From Lelliottia nimipressuralis (GTDB lineage Bacteria; Pseudomonadota; Gammaproteobacteria; Enterobacterales; Enterobacteriaceae), in assembly GCF_004402045.1 (NCBI RefSeq), contig NZ_SOMG01000030.1:744001-808000 (forward strand): DNA of 64,000 bases, in the 5' to 3' direction. Shown piece after piece: positions 50,711 through 64,000 of the stretch; position 1 is the stretch's first letter; the number at the start of each line of letters is the position of its first letter. Both the position numbers and the translations under genes were made by a program. Under the pieces are notes generated by a model, which worked only from the letters and a program-made list of their open reading frames with translations, did not search any database and had not been told where the DNA came from.

Positions 50711-51160
50711 TCAACCTACGGAACCTCCGGTTACCAGAGAGAGAATAAATAACAGCAACAACACTGCGACGATCAGCCCAAACGCAAGCAGCACAGCATG
50801 AAAGGTAAGCGTTAGCCCTGAGAATAGAAGTGCCCCAGAGATACCCCAACGGCTCTCCTTGCACATTCCTCCGATGAACGAAAGTCCCAGTGCCACAACA
50901 GCGAGAATAATCCCGGCGTTAAGAAGAATGCTGTCGATATCAACCGTCATTTTTTCGGTTCGGGCAGCAGGACGCTCTCCCTTTAACCCCGCAATTACCC
51001 CTTGTTTTACAGCCGAAACTTTCTCAGCAACAATAACCTCAAGCGCTGGCGGCTTTGGAGAAAACGGTCCGAATGAAAACTGAACGATTGAGAGAATGAG
51101 TGCAATTCCCCCCAGAAACATACCCAATGAACTGAATTTATTTCGTAATACGATTTCCAT
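50711..51160 (-). CDS. Small inner-membrane protein of unknown function
   Basis: A 149-residue protein I do not firmly recognise. One hydrophobic segment near the N-terminus (about 11-30), a charged soluble stretch (about 40-75, with EVIVAEKVSAVKQGVIAGLK), and three further hydrophobic segments in the last 75 residues suggest four transmembrane helices. I start at ATG 51160 with GAAGG upstream; an in-frame extension to 51223 runs through a REP palindrome and is rejected. It stands alone, bracketed by REP elements. Confidence 0.65.
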   Translation of the reverse strand: MEIVLRNKFSSLGMFLGGIALILSIVQFSFGPFSPKPPALEVIVAEKVSAVKQGVIAGLKGERPAARTEKMTVDIDSILLNAGIILAVVALGLSFIGGMCKESRWGISGALLFSGLTLTFHAVLLAFGLIVAVLLLLFILSLVTGGSVG

Positions 51161-51194
51161 ATCAACATGCCTTCGAGTAATGCCGCCGCGTGGG

Positions 51195-51227
51195 CTGTAG
51201 GCCCGGTAAGGCGTAGCCGCCACCGGG
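51195..51227. repeat. REP palindrome
   Basis: GCTGTAGGCCCGGTAAGGCG then TAGCCGCCACCGG is the same REP type as at 50630-50705, three bases from the stop codon of the symporter gene. Confidence 0.75.
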
Positions 51228-51230
51228 AGA

Positions 51231-52670
51231 TTAAAACTGCAGCATGCCGTTTTGCAGAAGAAAATTCCACCACGGAATGCCGCAAACCATATGGATCAGA
51301 AATGTGCACAACGCCACGACGGTGCCGATCGTCCACCATGACTTAATGTCGTTATACCCGGCGGCGAAGATAATGGGTCCTGCTGCGCCCCCATAGTGCG
51401 TGATACACCCGCCGTAGGAGTTGGAAAACAGAATAGCAAGCGCCAGCAGGACAGGCGCCGTTCCGGTTACCAGACCCACGGTGGCAAACACCGGCACCAT
51501 GGCCGCGACGTATGCTCCACCGGAGGCAAAGAAATAGCGAACCAGCACGCTGAGAAACACGATAATCACGATAGTCATATTACCGGCGCTGAGAAAATCC
51601 AGATGCGCAGACAGGAAATCAGCCAGCCAGCGGAAAAATCCCTCTTTGCTCAGGGTGGCGCTCAGACCAATGATGCCCCCATACCACATCAGGGTATTCC
51701 AGCCGCCTTTATTTTTTTGAACATCGCTCCAGCCGATAATATTAAACAGCAGGGCCGCCCCCATCGCGATAATGGCGACGGCGGATTCAGTGAGTCCAAG
51801 ATGACGTGAGAAGATCCAGCCCAATAATGCGGCGATAAAAATAACCACCAGCCCCTTCTCTTTGAGGCTCATTGCACCGAGGCTTTGAAGCCCGTTGGTC
51901 GCAATCGCGACATTATCAATTTCTTTAATTTCCGGAGAGGCAATTCGGTAGCAAATATAGGGAATGATACACAGCATCAATAAACCCAACGGGGCACCCG
52001 CCAGCATCCAGCCGATCCAGCTAATATGAATATGGAAAATATCTGAAATGAGCTGAAGCGCTAACGCGTTCCCGGCAAAGCCCGTTAAAAACATATAGCT
52101 GGTCGTTTTAGTGACCATATAGACATTAACCATTAAATAACGGCCAGCCTTACACGGCGTCTCTTTTGGCGTTGAGCCCAGTACGGTCGCGATGCTGTTA
52201 ATAATAGGGAATACCACCCCACCTGCCCGCGCGGTATTTGAGGGCGTGGCGGGTGCCAGCACCAAATCCAGTAAGGCGGTCACATACCCCAGTCTCAGCG
52301 TCGTACTGCCAAACTTGAGGATAAACCAGTAGGCAAGCCGTTTCCCCAGACCGGTCGTGACAAATGCCGCGCTAAGCGTAAAGGCACTGAACACCAGCCA
52401 GGTGGTGCCTGAGGCGTATCCACTCAGCACATCCATTGATTTGACGGGTGAATCCGGGAATTTTGTTACGGTAAAACAGGTTAATGCAACCGCGACGAGC
52501 ATGATGACGGGTTCGGGATAAGGTTTAATGACCAGGCCAACGATAGCGGACAAATATATTCCTGCCAGTATCCACGCCTCTTTGGTTAATCCATCAGGCG
52601 GAGGAATGAATATTGATAATAATATTATCACGGCAAGTAAGATTGTTTTTAAAACATTGGATTTAAGCAT
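51231..52670 (-). CDS. Divalent anion:sodium symporter (DASS) family di/tricarboxylate transporter
   Basis: Inner-membrane carrier of 479 residues in the DASS/CitT group, which moves citrate, succinate, tartrate or similar carboxylates by antiport or Na+ symport. The paired substrate-binding S-N-T-type hairpins are visible: LAPATPSNTARAGG in the first half and the equivalent NSYGGCITHYGGAAGP in the second. The first is the classical CitT/TtdT motif. It is the last gene of the citrate-lyase cluster, 96 bases after the aconitase gene, where citT follows citG in E. coli. A tri- or dicarboxylate role is likely; exact ions unknown. Confidence 0.85.
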   Translation of the reverse strand: MLKSNVLKTILLAVIILLSIFIPPPDGLTKEAWILAGIYLSAIVGLVIKPYPEPVIMLVAVALTCFTVTKFPDSPVKSMDVLSGYASGTTWLVFSAFTLSAAFVTTGLGKRLAYWFILKFGSTTLRLGYVTALLDLVLAPATPSNTARAGGVVFPIINSIATVLGSTPKETPCKAGRYLMVNVYMVTKTTSYMFLTGFAGNALALQLISDIFHIHISWIGWMLAGAPLGLLMLCIIPYICYRIASPEIKEIDNVAIATNGLQSLGAMSLKEKGLVVIFIAALLGWIFSRHLGLTESAVAIIAMGAALLFNIIGWSDVQKNKGGWNTLMWYGGIIGLSATLSKEGFFRWLADFLSAHLDFLSAGNMTIVIIVFLSVLVRYFFASGGAYVAAMVPVFATVGLVTGTAPVLLALAILFSNSYGGCITHYGGAAGPIIFAAGYNDIKSWWTIGTVVALCTFLIHMVCGIPWWNFLLQNGMLQF

Positions 52671-52700
52671 ATCTCACCCATGAGAAAAGGGTCCCTGAAT

Positions 52701-52732
52701 GGCAGAGACGGCTCCAGAGAGACGCCTCTGCC
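52701..52732 (-). other. Hairpin between aconitase and symporter genes
   Basis: Stem GGCAGAG / CTCTGCC in the 96-base gap between the two genes. Without a T-run on the minus strand it is more likely an mRNA processing or stability element than a terminator. Confidence 0.4.
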
Positions 52733-52766
52733 GGCTAAATACATTTGCTAAATAAATAATAAGAAA

Positions 52767-55358
52767 CTACAGACTAACAATCTGGATATTATCACCTTCT
52801 GTGTTTTTATATTCTGCCAGGGTGTCAAAACTGAGATAGCGATAGATATTTTCCTGCGCGCCATGAAGTTTATCCGTATAGCTAAAATATTCTTCCACGC
52901 TTGGCATTTTACCCAGTATGGCCGCGACGGTGCTTAATTCAGCCGAGGCAAGGAACACTTTGGCATTCGTTCCCAGACGATGCGGGAAATTTCGGGTGGA
53001 CGTTGATACTACGTGACTCCCTTCGCGCACCCTCGCCTGGTTCCCCATGCAGAGGGAACAGCCCGCGGGCTCGATTCTCGCCCCCGATTTTATAAACTGA
53101 CTAAAATAGCCCTCACGGGAAAGCTGCCGGGCATCCATTTTGGTGGGAGGCGCGATCCACAACCGCGCCTGGCTTGCACTGGCATCGGCCAGGATTTCAC
53201 CCGCAGCGCGGAAATGACCAATGTTGGTCATGCAGGAGCCAATAAAGACCTCTTCAACAGGCGTGCTGGCAACGTCGGAAAGTAACCGGGCATCGTCCGG
53301 ATCGTCCGGCGCGCAGACCACCGGTTCAGTGATTTCATTGAGGTCAATGTCAATGACTGCGGCATATTCCGCGTCAGGATCGGCGGACAGCAGCGATGGG
53401 TTAGCCAGCCACGCCTCGATTTCAGCGATGCGACGTTCAAGCGTGTCGGCGTTCTCATACCCCTGCTTAACCATCCAGCGCAGCAGAGCCGCGTTGGAAC
53501 GCAGATATTGCGCGACATTCTCTTCTGCCAGGCGCATCACGCACGCAGCAGCGGACCGTTCAGCGGAGGCGTCAGCCAGCTCAAACGCCTGCTCTGCACT
53601 CAGTGTTTCCAGCCCCTCAATTTCGAGGATCCGGCCCGAGAAAACATTGCGTTTATTCTTTTTCTCGACCGTCAACAGTCCCTGCTTTCTGGCGTAGAGC
53701 GGTATGGCATGAACCAGATCGCGCAGGGTGATCCCTTTTTGCATCTCGCCCTTAAAGCGCACCAGCACCGATTCAGGCATATCCAGCGGCATAATGCCGG
53801 TTGCGGCGGCAAACGCTACCAGCCCGGAGCCGCCCGGGAAAGAGATCCCCAGCGGGAAGCGGGTATGGGAGTCGGCACCGGTGCCCACCGTATCCGGCAG
53901 CAGCATGCGGTTAAGCCAGGAGTGGATAATGCCATCGCCCGGCTTCAGCGCGACCCCGTTACGACGGGTAATAAACTGCGGCAGGGTTTCATGCAGCTGA
54001 ACGTCGACGGGCTTAGGGTACGCAGAGGTGTGGCAGAAAGACTGCATCACCAGGTCGGCTGAAAACGTGAGGCAGGCAAGGTCGGTCAGCTCGTCACGCG
54101 TCATCCCGCCGGTGGTGTCCTGAGAACCCACGGTCGTGATCTTCGGCTCGCAATACTGCCCGGGACGGATCCCCGCGACGCCGCAGGCTTTACCCACCAT
54201 TTTCTGTGCCAGCGTAAAACCGGCTGCGGATGGCGCAGGGGCGGAGGGCTTGCGGAAGACTTCTGAAGGCGCAAGCATCAGCGATTCCCTCGCTTTCGCG
54301 GTCAGGCTGCGTCCGATAATCAGCGGGATCCGCCCGCCGGCGCGCACTTCATCCAGCAACACCTCGGTTTTAAGCGTAAAGCGCGTCAACAGACGCTGGC
54401 TTTCCGTCTCGCGAATTTCGCCTTTGTAGGGATACAAATCGATCAGCATCCCGGTCGTCAGCGCGGAGACGTCCATCTCTACCGGCAAAGCACCGGAATC
54501 TTCCAGCGTGTTGAAGAAAATGGGCGCGATTTTGCCGCCAAACACAAACCCGCCGTTACGTTTATTCGGCACGTACGGAATATCGTTTCCGATGTGCCAT
54601 AAAATCGAGTTAGTGGCGGATTTGCGCGATGACCCGGTTCCGACGACATCGCCGACGTACGCCAGCGGCCAGCCTTCCTCTTTTAATTCTGCCAGCTGGC
54701 GCAAAGGGCCTCGCACGCCGGCTTCATCCGGCTCGACCCCTTCCCTGACGTTACTAAGCATGGAGAGCGCGTGCAGCGGAATATCCGGACGTGACCACGC
54801 CTCCGGTGCCGGAGACAAATCGTCGGTATTGGTCTCACCGGGAACCTTGAACACCTTCAGGGTGATTTTTTCAGGCATCGCCGGACGGCGGGTAAACCAT
54901 TCGGCATTTGCCCAGGACTGAAGCACCTCTTTTGCCCGGTCGTTACCGCTCATCGCTTTGGCTTCAACCTGGCTGAATTTTTCAAAAATCAGGATGGTAG
55001 AAGAAAGCTGCTGTACGGCCAGCGGTGCCAGGCTCGGGTGGTCCAGAAGATCAATCAGCGGCTGGACGTTATAGCCTCCCTGCATGGTGCCCAGCAGCGT
55101 CGTGGCCGCCTCGGGAGAGAGGCCGTTAATACGGTATTCCTGCAATGCCACCTTAAATAAAAATTCGGCTTTTAACTTTGCCGCGGGATCGACGCCCGGG
55201 GGAACGCTGTGGGTTAATAATTCTAAGAGAGGATGAGGTGCGGACGCATCGTGAATTAAACGATGAATAAGCGCATCAGTCTGTTCCGCTGTTAAGGGTT
55301 TCGCCGGAATGCCCGCCTCTTCGCGTGCGATCAGGTGCTGATTATAATCATCTAACAT
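52767..55358 (-). CDS. acnB: Aconitate hydratase B-like protein
   Basis: AcnB-type aconitase of 863 residues, with the AcnB order of domains: N-terminal HEAT-like helices (about 1-160), the swivel domain (about 165-390) and the catalytic Fe-S domains. The cluster cysteines are seen in [10 protein letters not shown] and in [13 protein letters not shown]; other active-site blocks are [17 protein letters not shown] and [17 protein letters not shown]. It interconverts citrate, cis-aconitate and isocitrate. Its position inside a citrate lyase cluster shows this is a pathway copy, not the housekeeping acnB, which lies near lpd in relatives. The start has AGGAGA upstream. A related dehydratase specificity (e.g. 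methylated substrates) cannot be excluded. Confidence 0.88.
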
Positions 55359-55375
55359 AGGGTCTCCTGTTAAAG

Positions 55376-55924
55376 CTAAAGTTGTTCACAAAATTCTGTT
55401 AGCCGTTCGAGTCCGTAAGGCCATTCACCAAAACCCGATTCGGCATTAATATGCCCGGCCTCCCCGATATCGATTAAATGGCCCTCCCAGCGTGCTGCCC
55501 AGAACTGAGCGCGCGCGAAAGGCATCAGGGGGTCGTTTCTGCTGGCAAACATCAGGCAGGGAACCGGCAATGACGCTGGCTGAATGGCCTCTTCAAGGCC
55601 GAAAATAGCGGGTTCTGCCGGCGCGACCATCACCACCCCGGCGACGTTTACCCGTCGCGTTTGCAGCAGCCGGCATGACGCCAGCGCGCCAAAGCTATGG
55701 CCGACGAGGATGGCGGGCAGCTGGCACGATGCCAGTTCGCGGGTAATGGCGGAGACCCAGTTTTCAATATCGGGCTCAAACCAATTTTTCTGCTGAATCC
55801 GCTTCCAGAAAGGAAAACGCCGCCCCCAACAGCTTTGCCAGTGATGCTCATCGCTGTCTCTCAATCCCGGCACCAGAATTAGGGTATAAACGTTACTGAG
55901 CTGCTGCAGGCGTTGTTCAATCAT
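55376..55924 (-). CDS. RBBP9/YdeN-type alpha/beta hydrolase
   Basis: Small serine hydrolase of 182 residues in the RBBP9/YdeN family. The catalytic triad appears as S in GHSFGA, D in SRNDPLMP, and H in GEAGHIN. The start is ATG 55924, behind AAAGGAAAA and 17 bases after the citG stop; a longer frame to 55972 would overlap citG by 31 bases. It is embedded in the citrate-lyase/aconitase operon, 17 bases upstream of the acnB-like gene. No known citrate lyase gene set that I recall includes it; it might split an ester or thioester of the pathway substrate (speculative). Confidence 0.75.
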
Positions 55925-55941
55925 GACGTTTTCCTTTTCGA

Positions 55942-56817
55942 TTATTCGCACGGGAACTGCGACAATAACCATCCGACGGCGATAAGATCTGCGCTCCCAC
56001 CCGGACTTAAATTCCGGCGAATAAACTGAACGTCCATTCTGGATAAGGCATTAACTAATTTCTCCGGCGTCAGATGTCTCACGGTTAATAGTCGTCTGGA
56101 ATAGCGTCTGGCGTAATTCAGCCCTTCCGTTCCACCACGTGAAACAAGATTGGTATCCGGATTCGCCGCCATCAGCCCGAGCAGCATCCTCAGCAGCGCG
56201 TCGTCCTCAGAGGCTCCCCGGCGCAGTGCGATGTCAAAGTGAGGAAGGCCAACGTGGCGGACGGTGGCAAAACCGCTTTCCGCCTCCCCTCTGGCACCGG
56301 TGAAGCCGTACGCTTTGTATTGCTGCTCGCCCTTCGTTTTCGCAACGCCGCGATTTTTCAGCTCCTGTTCAACGATGCCTTTGCAGATTGCGCTACTCTC
56401 ATCGCACAGGCTGCGTTGCGTGAGGCTTTCTTGCCTTTGCGTCAGACGCCCCGCCGCGGCACACAGCAGCCCCAGAGAGAAGATCCCGCCTTTATGGGTA
56501 TTCACCCCGCCGGTGGCGTTAAACATTGCCTGTTCGCAGGCCAGACCGGTCGGCCTTATCGCCCGCAGCGTTTGCGGGCCAGCAAGACGAGCAGTCTCTC
56601 TGCCAACGTTAAAGAATGTTGAAAACCAGGGGGCAATCGCCGCGATACTGGTCATGAACAGTGCGAAATTCATATCCTTATGCGCCCCACTGTTTACGCG
56701 ATCCACCAGACCCGGTTTCGGGGTTAAGCGAATTTCCCGGTACAGGGCCTCGGTAGCCAGCTCAGCGAAGGTGTGCTGAACGTCGGGTGCATTACATCTG
56801 GCAAGCAAAGTAGTCAT
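55942..56817 (-). CDS. citG: Triphosphoribosyl-dephospho-CoA synthase CitG
   Basis: CitG, 291 residues, makes 2'-(5''-triphosphoribosyl)-3'-dephospho-CoA from ATP and dephospho-CoA, the precursor of the citrate lyase prosthetic group. Family blocks: LTPKPGLVDRVNSGAHKDMN, GGVNTHKGGIFSLGLLCAAAGR, and GFTGARGEAESGF. It overlaps citX by 26 bases. Separate CitX and CitG proteins, as in E. coli, not the CitXG fusion. Confidence 0.93.
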   Translation of the reverse strand: MTTLLARCNAPDVQHTFAELATEALYREIRLTPKPGLVDRVNSGAHKDMNFALFMTSIAAIAPWFSTFFNVGRETARLAGPQTLRAIRPTGLACEQAMFNATGGVNTHKGGIFSLGLLCAAAGRLTQRQESLTQRSLCDESSAICKGIVEQELKNRGVAKTKGEQQYKAYGFTGARGEAESGFATVRHVGLPHFDIALRRGASEDDALLRMLLGLMAANPDTNLVSRGGTEGLNYARRYSRRLLTVRHLTPEKLVNALSRMDVQFIRRNLSPGGSADLIAVGWLLSQFPCE

Positions 56818-57331
56818 CGGTTAACGCCTCGATTACGCGCGTGAGCTCGGCCTGTGAATGACGTCGCATACGAGAACAAACATGAGCAGGTTCATGACAG
56901 ATAAAGCATCTGCGCATCGGTTGCTGGATAGCGTTTCTTTTCAGCAGGCCCGCTTTTGGACACAGCACGTCGATATCCCATAAGCGTCCCAGCGGATGGT
57001 TATCTTCCAGGTGCGCCGTCACGTGTTTGACCATCCACGCGGGTGCCGCCACCGCCCAGAGCGCTTCCGGCCCCGTGACCGGCTGCAGGATCTGCTGCCG
57101 GCAGACCGTCCACTGATGGGTCCGGAACAGGTTCCCGAGCGCGTCATTCGCAGCGGCCATCACCTGTCTGGCCAGCGCGGTATCCTTCACCTCCCCCGGC
57201 CAGACCAGCGTGACGGAAACCACCGTATGATCCGACTGAAACAGCCACGCCTGCTGACGACGGGCTCGCTGTTCTCTGGCGTTCAGAACCTGTTCCAGAG
57301 AGACCTTCGCGTTCGAGGCTTTATCCATCAT
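56792..57331 (-). CDS. citX: Apo-citrate lyase phosphoribosyl-dephospho-CoA transferase CitX
   Basis: CitX, 179 residues, transfers the prosthetic group precursor to the serine of CitD. Family blocks: LEQVLNAREQRARRQQAWL near the N-terminus, GRLWDIDVLCP in the middle and RRCFICHEPAHVCSRMRRHS with its conserved cysteines. The start is 57331, eight bases after AAGGAG; a second adjacent ATG is possible. Five bases separate it from citF. Confidence 0.93.
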   Translation of the reverse strand: MMDKASNAKVSLEQVLNAREQRARRQQAWLFQSDHTVVSVTLVWPGEVKDTALARQVMAAANDALGNLFRTHQWTVCRQQILQPVTGPEALWAVAAPAWMVKHVTAHLEDNHPLGRLWDIDVLCPKAGLLKRNAIQQPMRRCFICHEPAHVCSRMRRHSQAELTRVIEALTDDYFACQM

Positions 57332-57336
57332 GAGAA

Positions 57337-58857
57337 TTACTCCTTAACCTGGCGAACCACATCTATCACGCTGCCGTCGCGGTAGCGCACCACACCGACG
57401 ATACGGTCAGTAAACTCGACAGGCTTAGGCTCACCCGAGATGAGCAGCGCCTTGCGATACAGCGCATCGATGTCGACGACGGTCAGCCCGGCGTTAATCA
57501 GACGTTCACGGATCTCCGGACGCGCCGGGTTAACGGCAATACCGTGATCGGTAACCAGAACGTCGATGCTTTCGCCCGGCGTCACCAGGGTGGTGACCTG
57601 CCTGACAACGGTAGGAATTCGGCTGCGGATCAGCGGGGCAACCACGATGGTGAGATTTGCCGCCGCGGCGACGTCGCAATGCCCGCCTGAGGCGCCGCGC
57701 ATCACGCCGTCGGAACCGGTCAGGACGTTTACGTTGAACTGTGTGTCCACCTCCAGCGCGCTGAGAATGACCACATCAACCCTGTCGCAGCAGGCGGCTT
57801 TTGCAGCCGGGTTCGCATAGACGTTGGTGGAAATTTCCACATGGCCTGGATTGACCGTCATAGAGGCTGCCGCTGCACCATCAAAGCTTTGCGTATCGAG
57901 AATCTTTTCAATGAGTCCCTTTTGATGCAGATCGACAATGCTGCCAGTGATGCCGCCGAGCGCGAACCGGGCGACAATATTGTGTTTGCGCATACGGGCT
58001 TCCATAAACCGCGTACAGGCGGTGGACGCCGCGCCTGAACCGGTCTGAATGGAAAAGCCGTTGCGGAAATAGCCAGAGTGTTCGATAACGTCGGCGGCAG
58101 AACGGGCAATCATCAGCTCACGTGGATTACTGGTGACCCTGGCAGCGCCTACGCTGATTTTTGCCGGGTCGCCGACGCTCTCAATCTGCACCACATAGTC
58201 AACCCGGTCCTGGACGATACTGGCCGGCAGGTTGGGGAACGGCTTCAGAGTTTCGGTGAGCAAGACCACCTTTTTGGCGTATTGCGCGTCGACCATGGCA
58301 TAACCGAGCGAGCCGCACTGCGATGTGCCGCCGTTGCCGCTGGCATTGCCATATTCATCGCAGCAGGACACCGCCAGAAAGGCGACATCAATAGCAATTT
58401 CGCCCTTCTGAATCAGGTTCACCCGTCCACCATGGGAGTGGATCTGTACCGGCTCGTCCATCAATCCGTGTGAAATCGCATCCGCCAGCTCGCCACGCAT
58501 GCCGGAGGTATAGATTTTGCCAATCACGCCACTGCGAATGTGTTCAATAAGCGGGGCATTGCACGACATCAACGAACTGGACGCGAGCGTGATCCCTTTC
58601 AGACCGCGCTGAGCCAGTTTATCCATCACGTAATTAATGACCTTATCACCCTCGCGGAACGCGTGATGAAAGGATACGGTCATGCCGTCATGCAGATCGC
58701 AGCGGGCCAGCACGTCGTCTACGCTGGCAAAAAGTTTGCGCTGAGTCTTTTGCTGATGATCAGAAAGGTAAGGCGTCGTCGCGTTAGCGCCGCTGAAGGC
58801 GACGTACTCACGACGGGAGCCGGGCATGTGATGCAGAGTTTCAGTGAGGTTTTTCAT
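57337..58857 (-). CDS. citF: Citrate lyase alpha subunit CitF
   Basis: Alpha subunit of 506 residues (E. coli CitF is 510), the acetyl-ACP:citrate ACP-transferase that exchanges acetate for citrate on CitD. Recognised by the transferase blocks LHDGMTVSFHHAFREGD and GNGGTSQCGSLGYAMVDAQYAKKVVLLTETL, and the C-terminal VLVTDHGIAVNPARPE. It is a genuine citrate lyase-type subunit, but citramalate lyase uses close homologues, so the substrate is not fixed by sequence alone. Confidence 0.93.
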   Translation of the reverse strand: MKNLTETLHHMPGSRREYVAFSGANATTPYLSDHQQKTQRKLFASVDDVLARCDLHDGMTVSFHHAFREGDKVINYVMDKLAQRGLKGITLASSSLMSCNAPLIEHIRSGVIGKIYTSGMRGELADAISHGLMDEPVQIHSHGGRVNLIQKGEIAIDVAFLAVSCCDEYGNASGNGGTSQCGSLGYAMVDAQYAKKVVLLTETLKPFPNLPASIVQDRVDYVVQIESVGDPAKISVGAARVTSNPRELMIARSAADVIEHSGYFRNGFSIQTGSGAASTACTRFMEARMRKHNIVARFALGGITGSIVDLHQKGLIEKILDTQSFDGAAAASMTVNPGHVEISTNVYANPAAKAACCDRVDVVILSALEVDTQFNVNVLTGSDGVMRGASGGHCDVAAAANLTIVVAPLIRSRIPTVVRQVTTLVTPGESIDVLVTDHGIAVNPARPEIRERLINAGLTVVDIDALYRKALLISGEPKPVEFTDRIVGVVRYRDGSVIDVVRQVKE

Positions 58858-58887
58858 TATTCATCCTGTCGCTTGCGGTATAAGGGA

Positions 58888-59763
58888 TTACTGGCGAATG
58901 CCCGAGGCATTTTTACGTTCGATTACCACGCGGGCATGGTTGATGATTGGCGCGTCGATCATTTTTCCGTTCAGCGAAATCACCCCCAGTCCGTTGCGTT
59001 CTCCCTCTTCTGCAGCAGCAATCACGCGCTGGGCGTAATCCACTTCTTCCTGCGTAGGCGCGTAGGCGTTATGAAGAATTTCAATTTGTCGCGGATTAAT
59101 CAGCGATTTTCCGTTGAAGCCCATCCGGCGGATGAGATCCACTTCTTTGAGGAAACCGGCCTCGTCATTCACATCGGCGTATACCACGTCGAAAGCGTCA
59201 ATTCCTGCCCCGCGCGCGGCATGCAATACGGCGCAGCGGGCATAGAACAGCTCTGTCCCGTCGCCCCGCTCGGTTTGCATATCCATCACATAGTCAAAGG
59301 CGGCCAGCGCAATACCCATTAACCGGTCTGAGGATTTCGCAATGGCAACCGCGTTAATCACGCCGACGGCAGATTCGATTGCAGCCATTAATTTCGTTGA
59401 GCCAACAGGACGCCCGCAGTTTTCTTCAATGCGGACGATTTCACGTTCAAGTTGATAGATATCTTCCGGAGAGTCAGTTTTCGGCAGACGAATAACATCC
59501 ACACCTGCCCTGACGGCGGCTTCCAGATCCTTTAAACCAAAAGGGGTATTGAGCGGGTTAATTCTGACAACGGTTTCAATATCGTTGTACATCGGGTGCT
59601 GCAGCGCATGAAATACCAGAAGGCGGGCGCTGTCTTTTTCTTTCAGCGCAACGGCATCTTCCAGATCAAACATAATAGAGTCTGGTTTATAGATAAATGC
59701 CGTCGACAGCATGGCTGCACTTGAACCGGGAATAAATAACATACTGCGGCGTAACTTTTTCAT
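58888..59763 (-). CDS. citE: Citrate lyase beta subunit CitE
   Basis: Beta subunit of 291 residues, splitting citryl-ACP to acetyl-ACP and oxaloacetate. A TIM-barrel enzyme with [14 protein letters not shown] at the N-terminus, the Mg-binding [55 protein letters not shown], and [15 protein letters not shown] start at ATG 59763, whose ATG overlaps the citD stop (TAATG); an ATG at 59778 would add five residues and overlap further. It lies 30 bases before citF. Confidence 0.93.
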
Positions 59764-60053
59764 TATAACGTTTCCCATGCAATGTCTTCCCGGGCTGTAC
59801 CTCTGAGCAGTGCAGCCTGCACGCGGGCGCGGATCACGCAGTCCAGCGCGCCTTTATCATCGACAACGATCAGCCCCTGCTTGATATTGAATGCAGCAAG
59901 CGTTTCATTAACGACCTCTGTAATTCGGTCGCCAAACTGCTTATACACTTCGCTCTGGATGACCACATCCAGCCCGCTTTCGACGGGGCTTACCTTAACC
60001 ATAAGGTCGCTGGACTCCAGCGTTCCCGCCATCGCGGCTTGCACAATTTTCAT
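59763..60053 (-). CDS. citD: Citrate lyase acyl carrier protein CitD
   Basis: Gamma subunit, 96 residues, the acyl carrier protein of citrate lyase. The prosthetic-group serine lies in AGTLESSD (residues 9-16, Ser14 by family knowledge), and the rest ([16 protein letters not shown] and [17 protein letters not shown]) is typical. The ATG follows AGGAAAA; the stop overlaps the citE start. Confidence 0.94.
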
Positions 60054-60077
60054 ATCAGTTTTCCTGTGATAATGCGG

Positions 60078-61145
60078 TTAAACCGCTGCCGTCAGCGGTT
60101 CGGATAAACAAGGCTGATGCTGTAATCCGTTATTCAGAAACGCGCGCGTGGTGGCGGGCACCATGCGACTGGCGGCAGCGATTTTGTTTTCTTTTAATAA
60201 ACGACGAACGGCTGAAGCCGATACCGGCACATTATTGCCATCCGTTCTTCGTTCTATTTCGTGTACGCTAATGCGGGCCGCCGTGCTCGTTTCTTCTTCC
60301 AGCCAGCGATGCATCGCCCGGTTATATTCGGCGGTTAACGGACAGAACGGCTCGGTACCCACGAAACGATGATTAATATTCAACGCGGGGGCGATGTAAT
60401 TTCTGAACAGCAGGAGATCAATTGCCGCGTAGGTTTTATCAATAACCTGCTTATCTTTCAGGAAATAGCCCGGGAATGTCCCGCGCGAAATAATATACGC
60501 CGACCCCGGATGAACGGTGACATTTGGCAGGTGACGGGATCCTTCCCTGACCATCGCGAATCGTTCTTTAAACGAAAATGCGGAGACATCTTCCTGGACC
60601 ACGAAAACATGTAACGCGTCGCACCGGCTTGCCGCATGCTCAATCAAATATTGATGGCCGAGGGTGAACGGATTGGCGTTCATCACAATCGCGCCAATAT
60701 TTTTTCCCGGCACGAAGTGGTGGCGGCGCAGCTGGCTGCAATAACGATGAATACCCACCGGCGTATTCTCCATTAATGACGCACAGTTCTCGACCGTCAC
60801 CAGCGGATAAAACCCGCATCCGCGAAACGACTTCACGTTATCCGGACAGGTAAAAAGAAAGAGTTGATGCTCACCGTTCTGTGCCGCCTGAAGCTCGGCC
60901 TCATGGATTAACGTCAGGCTTAACGACGTGCCCCGCCACGCGGCATCCACCGCGATGCATTTTAAGGTGTTACCCGCAATGCCGGTGCAGGCGACAAGCT
61001 GGCGTTGATAGCGGGCAACAATAAATTGCTCAATATCGTCATCAATGCCTAACCCGTTGCGGGCCAGGAAGCGGGCGACTTCCTCTCTGGACTGGGCGTT
61101 ACCGGCGTTAATAACCTCAAACTCGGGTGTTCTGGCGGTGTACAT
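60078..61145 (-). CDS. citC: Citrate lyase ligase CitC
   Basis: [Citrate (pro-3S)-lyase] ligase, 355 residues, acetylates the CitD prosthetic group with ATP and acetate to activate the lyase. Two domains: an N-terminal GNAT-like part (about 1-130) and a nucleotidyltransferase part with NANPFTLGHQYLIE (the HxGH-type motif) and SASAVRRLL near the end. The start has AGGAGAG upstream. It heads the citCDEFXG block in the same order as in E. coli. Confidence 0.93.
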   Translation of the reverse strand: MYTARTPEFEVINAGNAQSREEVARFLARNGLGIDDDIEQFIVARYQRQLVACTGIAGNTLKCIAVDAAWRGTSLSLTLIHEAELQAAQNGEHQLFLFTCPDNVKSFRGCGFYPLVTVENCASLMENTPVGIHRYCSQLRRHHFVPGKNIGAIVMNANPFTLGHQYLIEHAASRCDALHVFVVQEDVSAFSFKERFAMVREGSRHLPNVTVHPGSAYIISRGTFPGYFLKDKQVIDKTYAAIDLLLFRNYIAPALNINHRFVGTEPFCPLTAEYNRAMHRWLEEETSTAARISVHEIERRTDGNNVPVSASAVRRLLKENKIAAASRMVPATTRAFLNNGLQHQPCLSEPLTAAV

Positions 61146-61163
61146 CTTCTCTCTCCTGAGCGT

Positions 61164-62027
61164 CTAGACAGCTAACTCTTCCGGCTGCGGTTGAGCTTCC
61201 ACAATGGTATTCATCAGGCGACCAATGTTTTCGATTTCGACTTCGACGCGATCGCCATCGTGCATAAACAGAGGCGGATTACGCTTTTTGCCGACGCCAC
61301 CGGGCGAGCCGGTAATAATGACGTCGCCGGCGCTGAGGGAGGTGAACGTGCTGATGTAGGCGATAAGATCCGCCACTTTGTGGATCATGCTGCCGGTGGA
61401 ATCATTCTGAACCAGCATGCCGTTCAGCCAGGTGTGAATGGTCAACGCGTGGGGATCGGGGATCTCATCTGCCGTGGTCATATACGGGCCGAAGGCACCG
61501 GTTTGCGTCCAGTTTTTACCGGCGGTGAACCAGGCGTGCTGCCAGTCGCGCACGGAGCCATCCATATAGCAGCTGTAACCCGCGACATGGCTGAGCGCGT
61601 TATTGACGTCAATTCGGCTGCCGGGTTTGCCAATGATAACGGCCAGCTCGCCTTCATAATCGAACTCGCTGGAGAGAACCGGTTTTATCACCGGCCGCGC
61701 GTGTCCGGTTTGCGAATCAGGAAAACGAATAAACAGCGTGGGGGCATTATTCGTCTCAGCAAACTCTTTTCTTTTTTCAGCGTAATTCATTCCCACGCAG
61801 AAAATCTTTCCGGGCTCTTCTATCACGGGCAAAAAGGTAATGTCTTCAGGCATGATATCCACTGGGCAATCGAGATATTGCCTGGCGACGTCTACTGCAT
61901 CCCATTGAAGAAGGTCTTTCAATGTCGCATATTGATGGCCGATTTTATTACCCAAATCGATAAAGCCGGATGGTGTATAAATCCCGTAGCTTTTACGGCC
62001 CTGATGAATATAGCTTGCTAATTTCAT
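61164..62027 (-). CDS. Fumarylacetoacetate hydrolase (FAH) family enzyme
   Basis: FAH-fold enzyme of 287 residues. Metal-binding acids appear in SSEFDYEGELAVIIG (two glutamates) and YMDGSVRDWQ (aspartate); the K in GKNWTQTGAFGPYM and TGSPGGVG near the end are also typical. Family members split or decarboxylate 2-oxo acids: fumarylacetoacetate, acylpyruvates, and oxaloacetate in the FAHD1 type. Here it directly precedes citC by 18 bases. Because citrate lyase produces oxaloacetate and no oxaloacetate decarboxylase pump is present, I infer an oxaloacetate decarboxylase or tautomerase role; a hydrolase or lyase for a related acid is possible. Confidence 0.8.
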   Translation of the reverse strand: MKLASYIHQGRKSYGIYTPSGFIDLGNKIGHQYATLKDLLQWDAVDVARQYLDCPVDIMPEDITFLPVIEEPGKIFCVGMNYAEKRKEFAETNNAPTLFIRFPDSQTGHARPVIKPVLSSEFDYEGELAVIIGKPGSRIDVNNALSHVAGYSCYMDGSVRDWQHAWFTAGKNWTQTGAFGPYMTTADEIPDPHALTIHTWLNGMLVQNDSTGSMIHKVADLIAYISTFTSLSAGDVIITGSPGGVGKKRNPPLFMHDGDRVEVEIENIGRLMNTIVEAQPQPEELAV

Positions 62028-62097
62028 GATGATACCCGATTGATATACGTTTTCTTTCTGTGTTCACGCCCCAGGACGTGAACACATTGCCTGACTT

Positions 62098-63342
62098 TTA
62101 TTCTGCGGACTGGGCGGGTACCAGTACCGGTTTATTACCGGATGCCAGATACGTCGCCACCACAACGCCAACCCCGAGTAATGCCAGAATAAACCCGGTC
62201 ATCCCCTGCCAGCCCATTGAATGGAAAACAAAACCGTTAATAAAACCAATAACCGAACCGCCCATGTAGTAGAAGAATAAATAGAGCGCGACGGCCTGAC
62301 CTCTGGCATGGGTTGCATTTTTACTGACCCAGCTTAAGCCGATAGAGTGGCAGCCGAAGAAACAGCCGGTAAAAATCACAGCGCCAACAATAAAGGTGAC
62401 GACGTTCGATGTCAGCGTCAGCAGCATGCCGAACGCCATAATCAGGAACAACACACGCAAGACTTTCATTGCGCCATATTTCGCCGATAAGCGGCCTGCC
62501 TGCGGAGCCGTAAAGAAACTCAGGGCGAAGCTAAAAGAGAGCAGACCTGCATTTGCCGGTGAAATATGGAATGGTTCACCTTTCAGGAAGAAGGCCAGAT
62601 AGTTATACAGTGAGGTAAATGCGCCGAAGATAATAAAGCTGATGACAAACGCCAGCGCCAGATTTTTATTTTTGAAATGCGATGCCGCCCCTTTCACCAT
62701 ACGCATAGCGTTAAGGCTCTGCGTGGGTGTGAAGTTTTTAGATTCAGGCAGCAGGAACTTCACCAGAACGGCCACCACAATCAAACTGACCGCAAACCCG
62801 TAAAAGATGACATTGATTGAAACGTGATCGATCAGCTGGCTGGCAACAATACGGCCGGACATGCCGCCCATCGAGTTACCGAAGACAAAATAGCCCGTCA
62901 CGATGCCTGCCGCCACCGGCGCAACCTCTTCGCTGATGTAGGCGGTGGCTGCCGCAGCGATACCGCTCAGCGCCAGACCAATTACCGCACGCAGCGCCAC
63001 CAGCATCGCCCAGGATTCCACCAGCGGGCAGAGCAGCGTCAGAATACCGCCCAACAGGAGGGAGACGATAATTAAGCGCTTCCTGCCATAGTGATCGGAT
63101 AACGTCCCGGTAAACAGCAATCCAATTGCCAGCAAGGCTGTTTCTGCCGATAAGATAATACTCACCTGGCTGACCGGGACATTATACTCCACAGCAAGCG
63201 TCGGAAGCAGTGGCTGAATAAAAAACAGAGAAGCAAGTTCAGCAAGCCCGGATAATGCCAGCGCCAGAATCACGCGAATATACGCGCTGGCTTTTACAGG
63301 ATCGGGGGCTTTCAGGGTATTGTTAGCATGCGTTAACGCCAT
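62098..63342 (-). CDS. MFS transporter of the citrate-lyase cluster
   Basis: Major facilitator of 414 residues with 12 predicted helices. The loop 2-3 motif is GTLSDHYGRKRLI and motif C-like region FGNSMGGMSGRIV. It is nearest by feel to YnfM-type carriers, not to the known citrate permeases CitH/CitA. It sits between the isomerase-like and FAH-family genes, so it may import the pathway substrate or export acetate or another end product (inference). Start behind TGAGG. Confidence 0.8.
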   Translation of the reverse strand: MALTHANNTLKAPDPVKASAYIRVILALALSGLAELASLFFIQPLLPTLAVEYNVPVSQVSIILSAETALLAIGLLFTGTLSDHYGRKRLIIVSLLLGGILTLLCPLVESWAMLVALRAVIGLALSGIAAAATAYISEEVAPVAAGIVTGYFVFGNSMGGMSGRIVASQLIDHVSINVIFYGFAVSLIVVAVLVKFLLPESKNFTPTQSLNAMRMVKGAASHFKNKNLALAFVISFIIFGAFTSLYNYLAFFLKGEPFHISPANAGLLSFSFALSFFTAPQAGRLSAKYGAMKVLRVLFLIMAFGMLLTLTSNVVTFIVGAVIFTGCFFGCHSIGLSWVSKNATHARGQAVALYLFFYYMGGSVIGFINGFVFHSMGWQGMTGFILALLGVGVVVATYLASGNKPVLVPAQSAE

Positions 63343-63417
63343 AATAACCTCAGTATTATAGTTAAGGTACAGAATGTAATTGTTTAAGGCAGAACTATTT
63401 CTTAGTTTGGGTTTTAC

Positions 63418-64000
63418 CTAATCTACTTCAGAGAGCATTTTTTCAGGTACACAAACGGCACCTTCAAATAACTTACGGGAAGTCCGAATTACCGCGGCTC
63501 GGGTATTTGCGATATTGTTACCGTCCCTCAGTAATGAAACAGATATTTTCCCACTTGGGTGTTCTATATCAATAATATTGGTAAAGCGCTCCTTTGGACG
63601 ATCGGCGACGATTTTAGCGGCGACGGAACCGTCAATGAGCGTCGCGGTCGAAATACCAATCGAGCCGGTAATGGCCAGTGATTTATGGCACGTGTGTGGC
63701 ATGAAATACCGCACCTGAAGCGTTCCGCCGTTACGCGCCCGGCTCAGCAGAACCGGTTTAGGGATGACTTTGTTTGACACGTCCCCTAAGCCCATCGCCT
63801 CGCCCGCCTGACGACGCAGGTTCTCCAGCCTTGCTTTAAATGCCGTATCGGCGTCCAGTTCCGCGGGTGACTCCCCCCCTGTTTTTCCCAGGGCCGATGC
63901 CTCAATCAAAACCATCGGCATCGCCATATCAATGCAGGTGACTTCAATACCGTCGAACACATTTGTGACGCTGTCAGTCGGGAGTAATTTCCCTGTTTTA
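63418..64000 (-). CDS. PrpF/GalD-family isomerase, 3' part only
   Basis: C-terminal 193 residues of a PrpF-fold protein; the gene runs off the right edge, where the frame is open with GKLLPTDSVTN upstream of the first possible GTG. PrpF-fold enzymes isomerise double bonds in tricarboxylates and related acids: PrpF acts on methylaconitate and aconitate, GalD on 4-oxalomesaconate. Family blocks seen are VTCIDMAMPMVLIEA, the acidic-to-basic helix ADTAFKARLENLRRQAGEAMGLGDV, and RYFMPHTCHKSLAITGSIG. The spacing to the MFS gene is 75 bases. It suits an aconitate isomerase in this cluster (inference); the N-terminal catalytic cysteine cannot be checked here. Confidence 0.78.
   Translation of the reverse strand, partial: KTGKLLPTDSVTNVFDGIEVTCIDMAMPMVLIEASALGKTGGESPAELDADTAFKARLENLRRQAGEAMGLGDVSNKVIPKPVLLSRARNGGTLQVRYFMPHTCHKSLAITGSIGISTATLIDGSVAAKIVADRPKERFTNIIDIEHPSGKISVSLLRDGNNIANTRAAVIRTSRKLFEGAVCVPEKMLSEVD

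Follow-up and report, generated by a model that had tools for sequence, protein, structure and literature searches.

A stretch of 64,000 nucleotides from Lelliottia nimipressuralis (contig NZ_SOMG01000030.1, positions 744,001 to 808,000), in the following called the window, ends in a cluster of twelve genes (51231-64000) which combines a complete set of citrate lyase genes with genes for a PrpF-family isomerase and a second aconitase B (AcnB). Together with a divergent LysR gene just outside the window, this cluster is, judged by comparison of genomes, quite likely a substrate-inducible operon for the use of trans-aconitate that would be most useful without oxygen. As a candidate trans-aconitate pathway it is well supported by the comparisons below. 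From the observed gene content, conservation, linkage, operator pattern and conserved motifs we infer the substrate, the direction, each activity and the oxygen dependence; the anaerobic role is speculative. Grasses, maize and sugarcane contain this compound in abundance (PMC11495376). An isomeric tricarboxylate, with trans-aconitate as the best guess, entering citrate lyase via aconitase had already been proposed in a sequence-only reading of the window. Comparative genomics supports this proposal, but as new biochemistry the chain does not stand, Acidaminococcus fermentans being known to ferment trans-aconitate via citrate, oxaloacetate and pyruvate (Hartel and Buckel 1996, cited in PMC3035267). 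The composition of the cluster, also thought to be undescribed, apparently is so, as no paper describing it and no gene assigned to trans-aconitate use in Enterobacteria was recognised in the open-licence PMC literature. What seems to be new is a dedicated gene cluster in Enterobacteria that includes a separate AcnB, whereas the chemistry is known from A. fermentans and the assimilation by LysR, PrpF and MFS proteins from Bacillus velezensis.

All twelve genes are located on the minus strand of the 4.88 Mb genome in the order first read from the sequence, which was borne out by family models (NCBIfam cut-offs for citC, D, E, F, X and G, AcnB and DASS; Pfam gathering scores for FAH, MFS and the visible part of PrpF). 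The intergenic gaps comprise 5 to 96 bases, and citD/citE, citX/citG and citG/hydrolase overlap. The prpF gene runs past the end of the window; complete, it encodes 362 amino acids (L003:12418-13506) and reaches the window-equivalent position 64506. The citrate lyase set citC, D, E, F, X and G is complete, each member scoring above its curated cut-off:

L003:13600-14586, divergent from prpF, just outside the window: LysR gene
63418-64000, minus strand: 3' part of the prpF-family gene (PF04303), predicted aconitate isomerase
62098-63342, minus strand: MFS transporter of 414 amino acids (PF07690), predicted trans-aconitate/tricarboxylate importer
61164-62027, minus strand: cit-associated FAH-family protein (PF01557), candidate soluble oxaloacetate decarboxylase
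60078-61145, minus strand: citC, citrate lyase ligase (TIGR00124, 404.5 bits, cut-off 262.1)
59763-60053, minus strand: citD, citrate lyase acyl carrier protein (TIGR01608, 105.3 bits, cut-off 63.5)
58888-59778, minus strand: citE, citrate lyase beta subunit (TIGR01588, 467.5 bits, cut-off 443.4)
57337-58857, minus strand: citF, citrate lyase alpha subunit (TIGR01584, 726.8 bits, cut-off 501.45)
56792-57331, minus strand: citX, holo-citrate-lyase synthase (TIGR03124, 182.3 bits, cut-off 105.25)
55942-56817, minus strand: citG, triphosphoribosyl-dephospho-CoA synthase (TIGR03125, 329 bits, cut-off 272.3)
55376-55972, minus strand: small serine hydrolase of the RBBP9/YdeN type (PF06821; nearest structure 3bdv, DUF1234)
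52767-55358, minus strand: acnB paralogue of 863 amino acids (TIGR00117, 1386.8, cut-off 1287.2), predicted dedicated aconitase
51231-52670, minus strand: DASS-family carrier (TIGR00785, 471 bits, cut-off 198.6)

In the proposed pathway the MFS protein, together with the DASS carrier where present, would import trans-aconitate, which the PrpF-family enzyme would convert to cis-aconitate. The dedicated AcnB paralogue would hydrate cis-aconitate to citrate. Cleavage of citrate by citrate lyase (citCDEFXG) would yield acetate and oxaloacetate, the latter probably being decarboxylated to pyruvate by the FAH protein. The divergent LysR would sense the substrate and act at a conserved operator between lysR and prpF. 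Housekeeping AcnB may be low in anaerobiosis, and a private copy would supply aconitase in such situations. This private copy may also withstand trans-aconitate, which is known to inhibit aconitase (PMC11495376). The equilibrium of the isomerase Adi1 of Ustilago maydis lies at 88% trans to 12% cis (PMC4720413); since the isomerase equilibrium favours trans-aconitate, a pull by AcnB hydration and citrate lyase would be needed.

The divergent LysR, the PrpF-family isomerase and the MFS carrier stand together at one promoter, and the gap between lysR and prpF holds the conserved pattern ATTAAT-N11-ATTAAT-N12-GNCATTAG. In a scan of nine genomes with up to two mismatches, matches with 0-1 mismatch were single in seven genomes and always located in the lysR-prpF promoter; these seven are six cluster genomes and one Escherichia-type genome (G234). 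Neither G002 nor G566 showed a match at up to two mismatches, two 2-mismatch matches were located elsewhere in the scanned genomes, and the reversed control pattern matched once, in G002. Among 28 loci with an adjoining lysR and a PrpF identity of at least 75%, the operator was found with 0-1 mismatch in 26, with two mismatches in one and with six in one, compared with best values in the rest of the locus that begin at three mismatches (median five). At a PrpF identity of 58-75%, 12 of 79 loci with lysR carry it at 0-1 mismatch. Some loci in these counts are repeats of the same assemblies. The conserved upstream regulator that the sequence-only reading had advised to look for is present.

The same holds for the conserved gene set, which was recovered in 11 survey genomes and 13 of 18 named Enterobacterales loci. 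In the family survey of 295 genomes, 66 held PrpF relatives at E-values up to 1e-20, with 70 matches altogether; the window's own neighbourhood and 40 others, later seven more, were retrieved. Type I, lysR / prpF-MFS-FAH-citCDEFXG-(hydrolase)-acnB, occurs in 11 genomes (the window's own and 10 of the 40), with the hydrolase in eight and DASS after acnB in seven of them. Type II, lysR / prpF-citX-DASS-citCDEFG-acnB, was found in G002, and type III, CitAB-like genes / citCDEFXG-DASS-prpF, in four genomes (G203, G128 and G277 read through, G090 in part). Type IV comprises lysR / prpF-DASS without cit genes, like Escherichia coli ybhHI. In type V, CitAB-like genes / citCDEFXG-prpF-DASS, PrpF is distant (35-36% by tblastn); it covers nine genomes, seven of them read (L208-L214); for G155 and G243 the arrangement was deduced from match coordinates. 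Altogether, the distance between prpF and citF is about 7 kb or less in 25 of the 66 genomes with a PrpF match, in four arrangements; random placement predicts about 0.25, an indicative value as relatedness is ignored, and G242, with 18 kb between both genes, was not counted. The recurrence across genera indicates that the gene arrangement is more than chance.

The 18 named loci were drawn from the best 80 of 503 PrpF relatives. Besides the 13 in which the cluster extends into acnB, five of which are probably the same assemblies as survey genomes, three are cut by contig ends and two lack the cluster. Carriers are Enterobacter, Citrobacter werkmanii, Raoultella terrigena, Phytobacter, Kosakonia, Enterobacillus, Mixta, Pantoea anthophila and Prodigiosinella, and the small hydrolase is present in 12 of the 13. 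One carrier, Kosakonia sacchari SP1 (L109), is a plant endophyte. Within the genus the cluster is patchy, since only seven of 60 genomes hold a PrpF of 94-100% identity; four others have one of 52-53%. Copies outside the family were rejected, as no citrate lyase genes were seen in the 20 neighbourhoods read from the class survey, some of them on short contigs; in that survey 26 of 369 genomes, counting that of the window, gave 29 matches. None of 5426 E. coli genomes covers 80% of the 5.7 kb stretch from citE to prpF. A mobile plasmid cluster was rejected, as five plasmid records match partly and none above 80% of the cluster.

The second AcnB is closely tied to this arrangement. Two AcnB proteins occur in 13 of the 197 acnB-bearing genomes of the family, and every second copy (13/13) adjoins citF. 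The cluster accounts for 12 of these copies, which belong to type I or II loci with lysR, prpF and cit genes (Fisher 1.8e-20, relatedness ignored). The thirteenth (G061:C2:81000-100900, L216) lies beside citF and oadA/oadB-like genes, named from appearance only, with no prpF found, and the locus is perhaps meant for isocitrate or cis-aconitate. The AcnB paralogue of the window is 67% identical to the other AcnB of the same genome. In the AcnB tree, midpoint-rooted and with one long row (L205), a branch (89/97) separates the 13 housekeeping copies from the 12 cluster copies; a recent duplication of acnB was rejected because of this separation, and a single origin of all cluster copies is not established by it. 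Six of seven AcnB motif patterns match in 12/12 cluster copies, and the seventh fails in five copies at its last residue only. An exchange of FCHTAAYP to FCHTSAYP, which puts Ser in the place of Ala next to a conserved His that we take to be catalytic, was found in 12/12 prpF-linked AcnB and in 13/13 named clusters, compared with 0/13 housekeeping AcnB, and it is not present in the prpF-less G061 copy. This Ser might fit what a trans-aconitate-adapted enzyme would show; a specialisation of AcnB is speculative.

On contig C17 the same genome possesses another citrate locus (L004:2518-12482) composed of citBA, a CitW-like carrier (named from appearance), FAH and citCDEFXG. The window cluster is a second system that differs in its head (LysR, prpF, MFS) and its tail (acnB, DASS); the CitAB two-component regulator adjoins the C17 locus and not the window cluster, where LysR is found instead. 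The FAH protein of C17 (L004:6550-7413), encoded next to citC, is 71% identical to that of the window. Hence both loci share FAH, and the idea that it is a special extension of the window cluster has to be given up. FAHD1-type chemistry had been assumed for it as well. This is not assured, because Lys stands at the position of the His in what we take to be the His-Glu dyad of FAHD1-type enzymes. Of 21 distinct FAH rows, 20 carry Lys instead of this usual His, that of the window included, with the Glu kept. Of the Lys rows 19 come from cit loci, mostly with the motif NYA[DE]KR, and one (L077) has no cit locus in the stretch read; His was found in L066 and in two aligned FAH structures. The FAH proteins of cit loci appear to form a distinct subfamily. 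A pathway without the usual oad pump, as first suggested, agrees with the distribution of OAD_beta (oadB), which was not found in the window genome and is absent in 10 of 12 cluster genomes and present in two.

Since the window genome already owns the C17 locus for citrate, equipped with CitAB and a CitW-like carrier, it is unlikely that the cluster ferments a normal tricarboxylate (citrate, isocitrate, cis-aconitate) with PrpF only repairing trans-aconitate from a side-reaction. Citrate is indeed handled by citCDEFXG alone, the DASS family includes citrate carriers, and CitAB-like regulators adjoin the type III and V loci. However, prpF is the first gene, beside the divergent LysR, and the same pair is found without citrate lyase. 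The acnB-cit locus of G061, without prpF, would agree with such a repair function, yet its AcnB lacks the Ser common to the prpF-linked copies.

The carriers also bear on the direction of the pathway. In Enterobacteria the LysR-prpF pair adjoins MFS or DASS, the MFS gene lying next to prpF in the type I clusters of both the family survey and the named loci. Three Pseudomonas loci with the pair (L153, L172, L121) contain a CitMHS carrier in 3/3, a DctA gene in two and a porin-like gene in two, and are candidate trans-aconitate loci. In the gammaproteobacterium G566, TctC- and TctA-looking genes, with no NCBIfam match, lie beside LysR-prpF. DASS, DctA and CitMHS are families known for uptake or exchange, and their presence beside related LysR-prpF pairs makes it very improbable that the cluster produces trans-aconitate, from citrate via AcnB and PrpF to export by MFS, like the tbr operon of Bacillus thuringiensis. 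Production would agree with the isomerase equilibrium on the trans side (88:12 for Adi1, PMC4720413), with tbrA-tbrB as an isomerase-exporter operon (PMC11495376) and with one Enterobacter and one Citrobacter isolate that make trans-aconitate (PMC13188880). These isolates came from a screen for trans-aconitate assimilation (PMC13188880). In the window cluster, citrate lyase, present in full and accompanied by its activating enzymes, would use up the citrate required for production.

Among the best 80 of the 503 relatives, the best named ones of the window PrpF belong to Enterobacter genomosp. O (98%), E. asburiae (96%) and E. sichuanensis (94%), and the nearest solved structure is E. coli YbhH (6otv). 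Characterised aconitate isomerases of the PrpF family are TarA of Bacillus velezensis (PMC11495376), PrpF of Shewanella oneidensis (PMC5690661) and Adi1, which is proven and whose own listed match is GalD (PMC4720413). Lys59 and Cys93 are unvarying across ten cluster-type PrpF proteins, with a spacing equal to that of K73 and C107 of the S. oneidensis protein. A role in the methylcitrate cycle was rejected, since PrpF scores 177.2 with TIGR02334 (2-methylaconitate isomerase PrpF; cut-off 440.55) and no prpB, prpC or acnD was seen among the open reading frames of the cluster. With the 4-oxalomesaconate tautomerase model NF033377 it reaches 523.4 (cut-off 440), and several plasmid and E. coli homologues carry this label automatically. 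In a quick tree, the cluster PrpF is separated (Shimodaira-Hasegawa-like approximate likelihood ratio test 95, 99) from a branch that holds GalD of Pseudomonas putida together with family homologues about 50% identical, the GalD row being long and flagged as unsure. A GalD-type tautomerase of a gallate-type aromatic pathway, as annotated but not considered in the sequence-only reading, is hardly credible despite the model score and was rejected on tree and gene context, as two loci of the GalD branch have an adjoining gene which we take to be galB-like (in L074 presumably galC-like too), no gallate-pathway neighbour was found in the window cluster, and Adi1 also lists GalD.

Besides this tautomerase score and the lysine of the FAH protein, several findings weigh against a trans-aconitate operon. 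As prpF is missing from one acnB-cit locus (G061) and some prpF-cit loci have no second acnB, neither prpF nor acnB is strictly needed beside the lyase. The Ser of the prpF-linked AcnB may be plain common descent. For the MFS protein, none of 25 of 43 NCBIfam models gave a score above cut-off. In 62 Pseudomonas/Azomonas loci the operator pattern has 3-6 mismatches and does not exceed background; although alike by eye, it was rejected there. The LysR-prpF pair has an ABC (ATP-binding cassette) transporter neighbour on one Rhizobium plasmid, neither an adjoining carrier nor a cit gene in L117/L045, and no carriers on two Providencia plasmids (L217, L218; PrpF 77.6%), where it lies by a gene annotated as EexN family lipoprotein. 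Finally, deletion of E. coli ybhD raised ybhH, which the authors tentatively tie to L-malate (PMC9068703).

The small hydrolase gene overlaps citG by 31 bases, and that its product deacetylates citrate lyase is an idea only, its role being speculative. Past the other end of the cluster, 7 bases beyond the DASS gene and before the nar genes, lies an open reading frame for a small predicted membrane protein (50711-51223). The G+C content of the cluster (51231-64000) is 0.539, compared with 0.565 for the whole window and 0.598 for the adjoining nar genes.

Use of trans-aconitate is scored in species descriptions, e.g. in a Cronobacter/Franconibacter table and for Enterobacter pasteurii, which uses it in Biotype-100 strips (PMC10783019); trans-aconitate phenotypes of type strains are also recorded in a table of PMC4179279. 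The cluster also suggests a substrate for ybhHIJ, a y-gene operon of E. coli, and if a trans-aconitate operon is true, the label 4-oxalomesaconate tautomerase would be corrected for this branch of PrpF. A more far-reaching view is conceivable and rather doubtful: a modular trans-aconitate regulon of an old LysR-PrpF pair and lineage-specific carriers, to which Enterobacteria would add a private AcnB and citrate lyase for a fermentative form, with ybhHIJ as the respiratory form in E. coli and the small hydrolase switching citrate lyase off.

Among the known systems, A. fermentans is an unrelated organism in which the genes listed in PMC3035267 are spread over several loci, with no isomerase in that list. 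The citAB-citW-cit locus of the window genome (L004) agrees with the cluster in FAH, citCDEFXG and their order and differs by the adjoining CitAB and CitW-like carrier and by having no prpF, MFS or acnB. The Pectobacterium cit locus is written citYCDEFXG (PMC7843439), and we infer that citY is the FAH gene there; in Klebsiella citY denotes a sensor kinase (PMC2735749). The tarR-tarA-tarB operon of B. velezensis, likened here by description, is similar in that a LysR-type activator shares the promoter with a PrpF-family isomerase and an MFS importer; in contrast to the window cluster, it is described without citrate lyase, aconitase or FAH (PMC11495376), the product entering the tricarboxylic acid cycle. 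E. coli ybhD/ybhHIJ differs by the aconitase-like YbhJ in place of AcnB and has neither citrate lyase nor MFS. Compared via G234, which has a PrpF almost identical to YbhH, it shares with the window cluster the LysR (56% identity), PrpF (62%) and DASS (60%) proteins and the same operator pattern.

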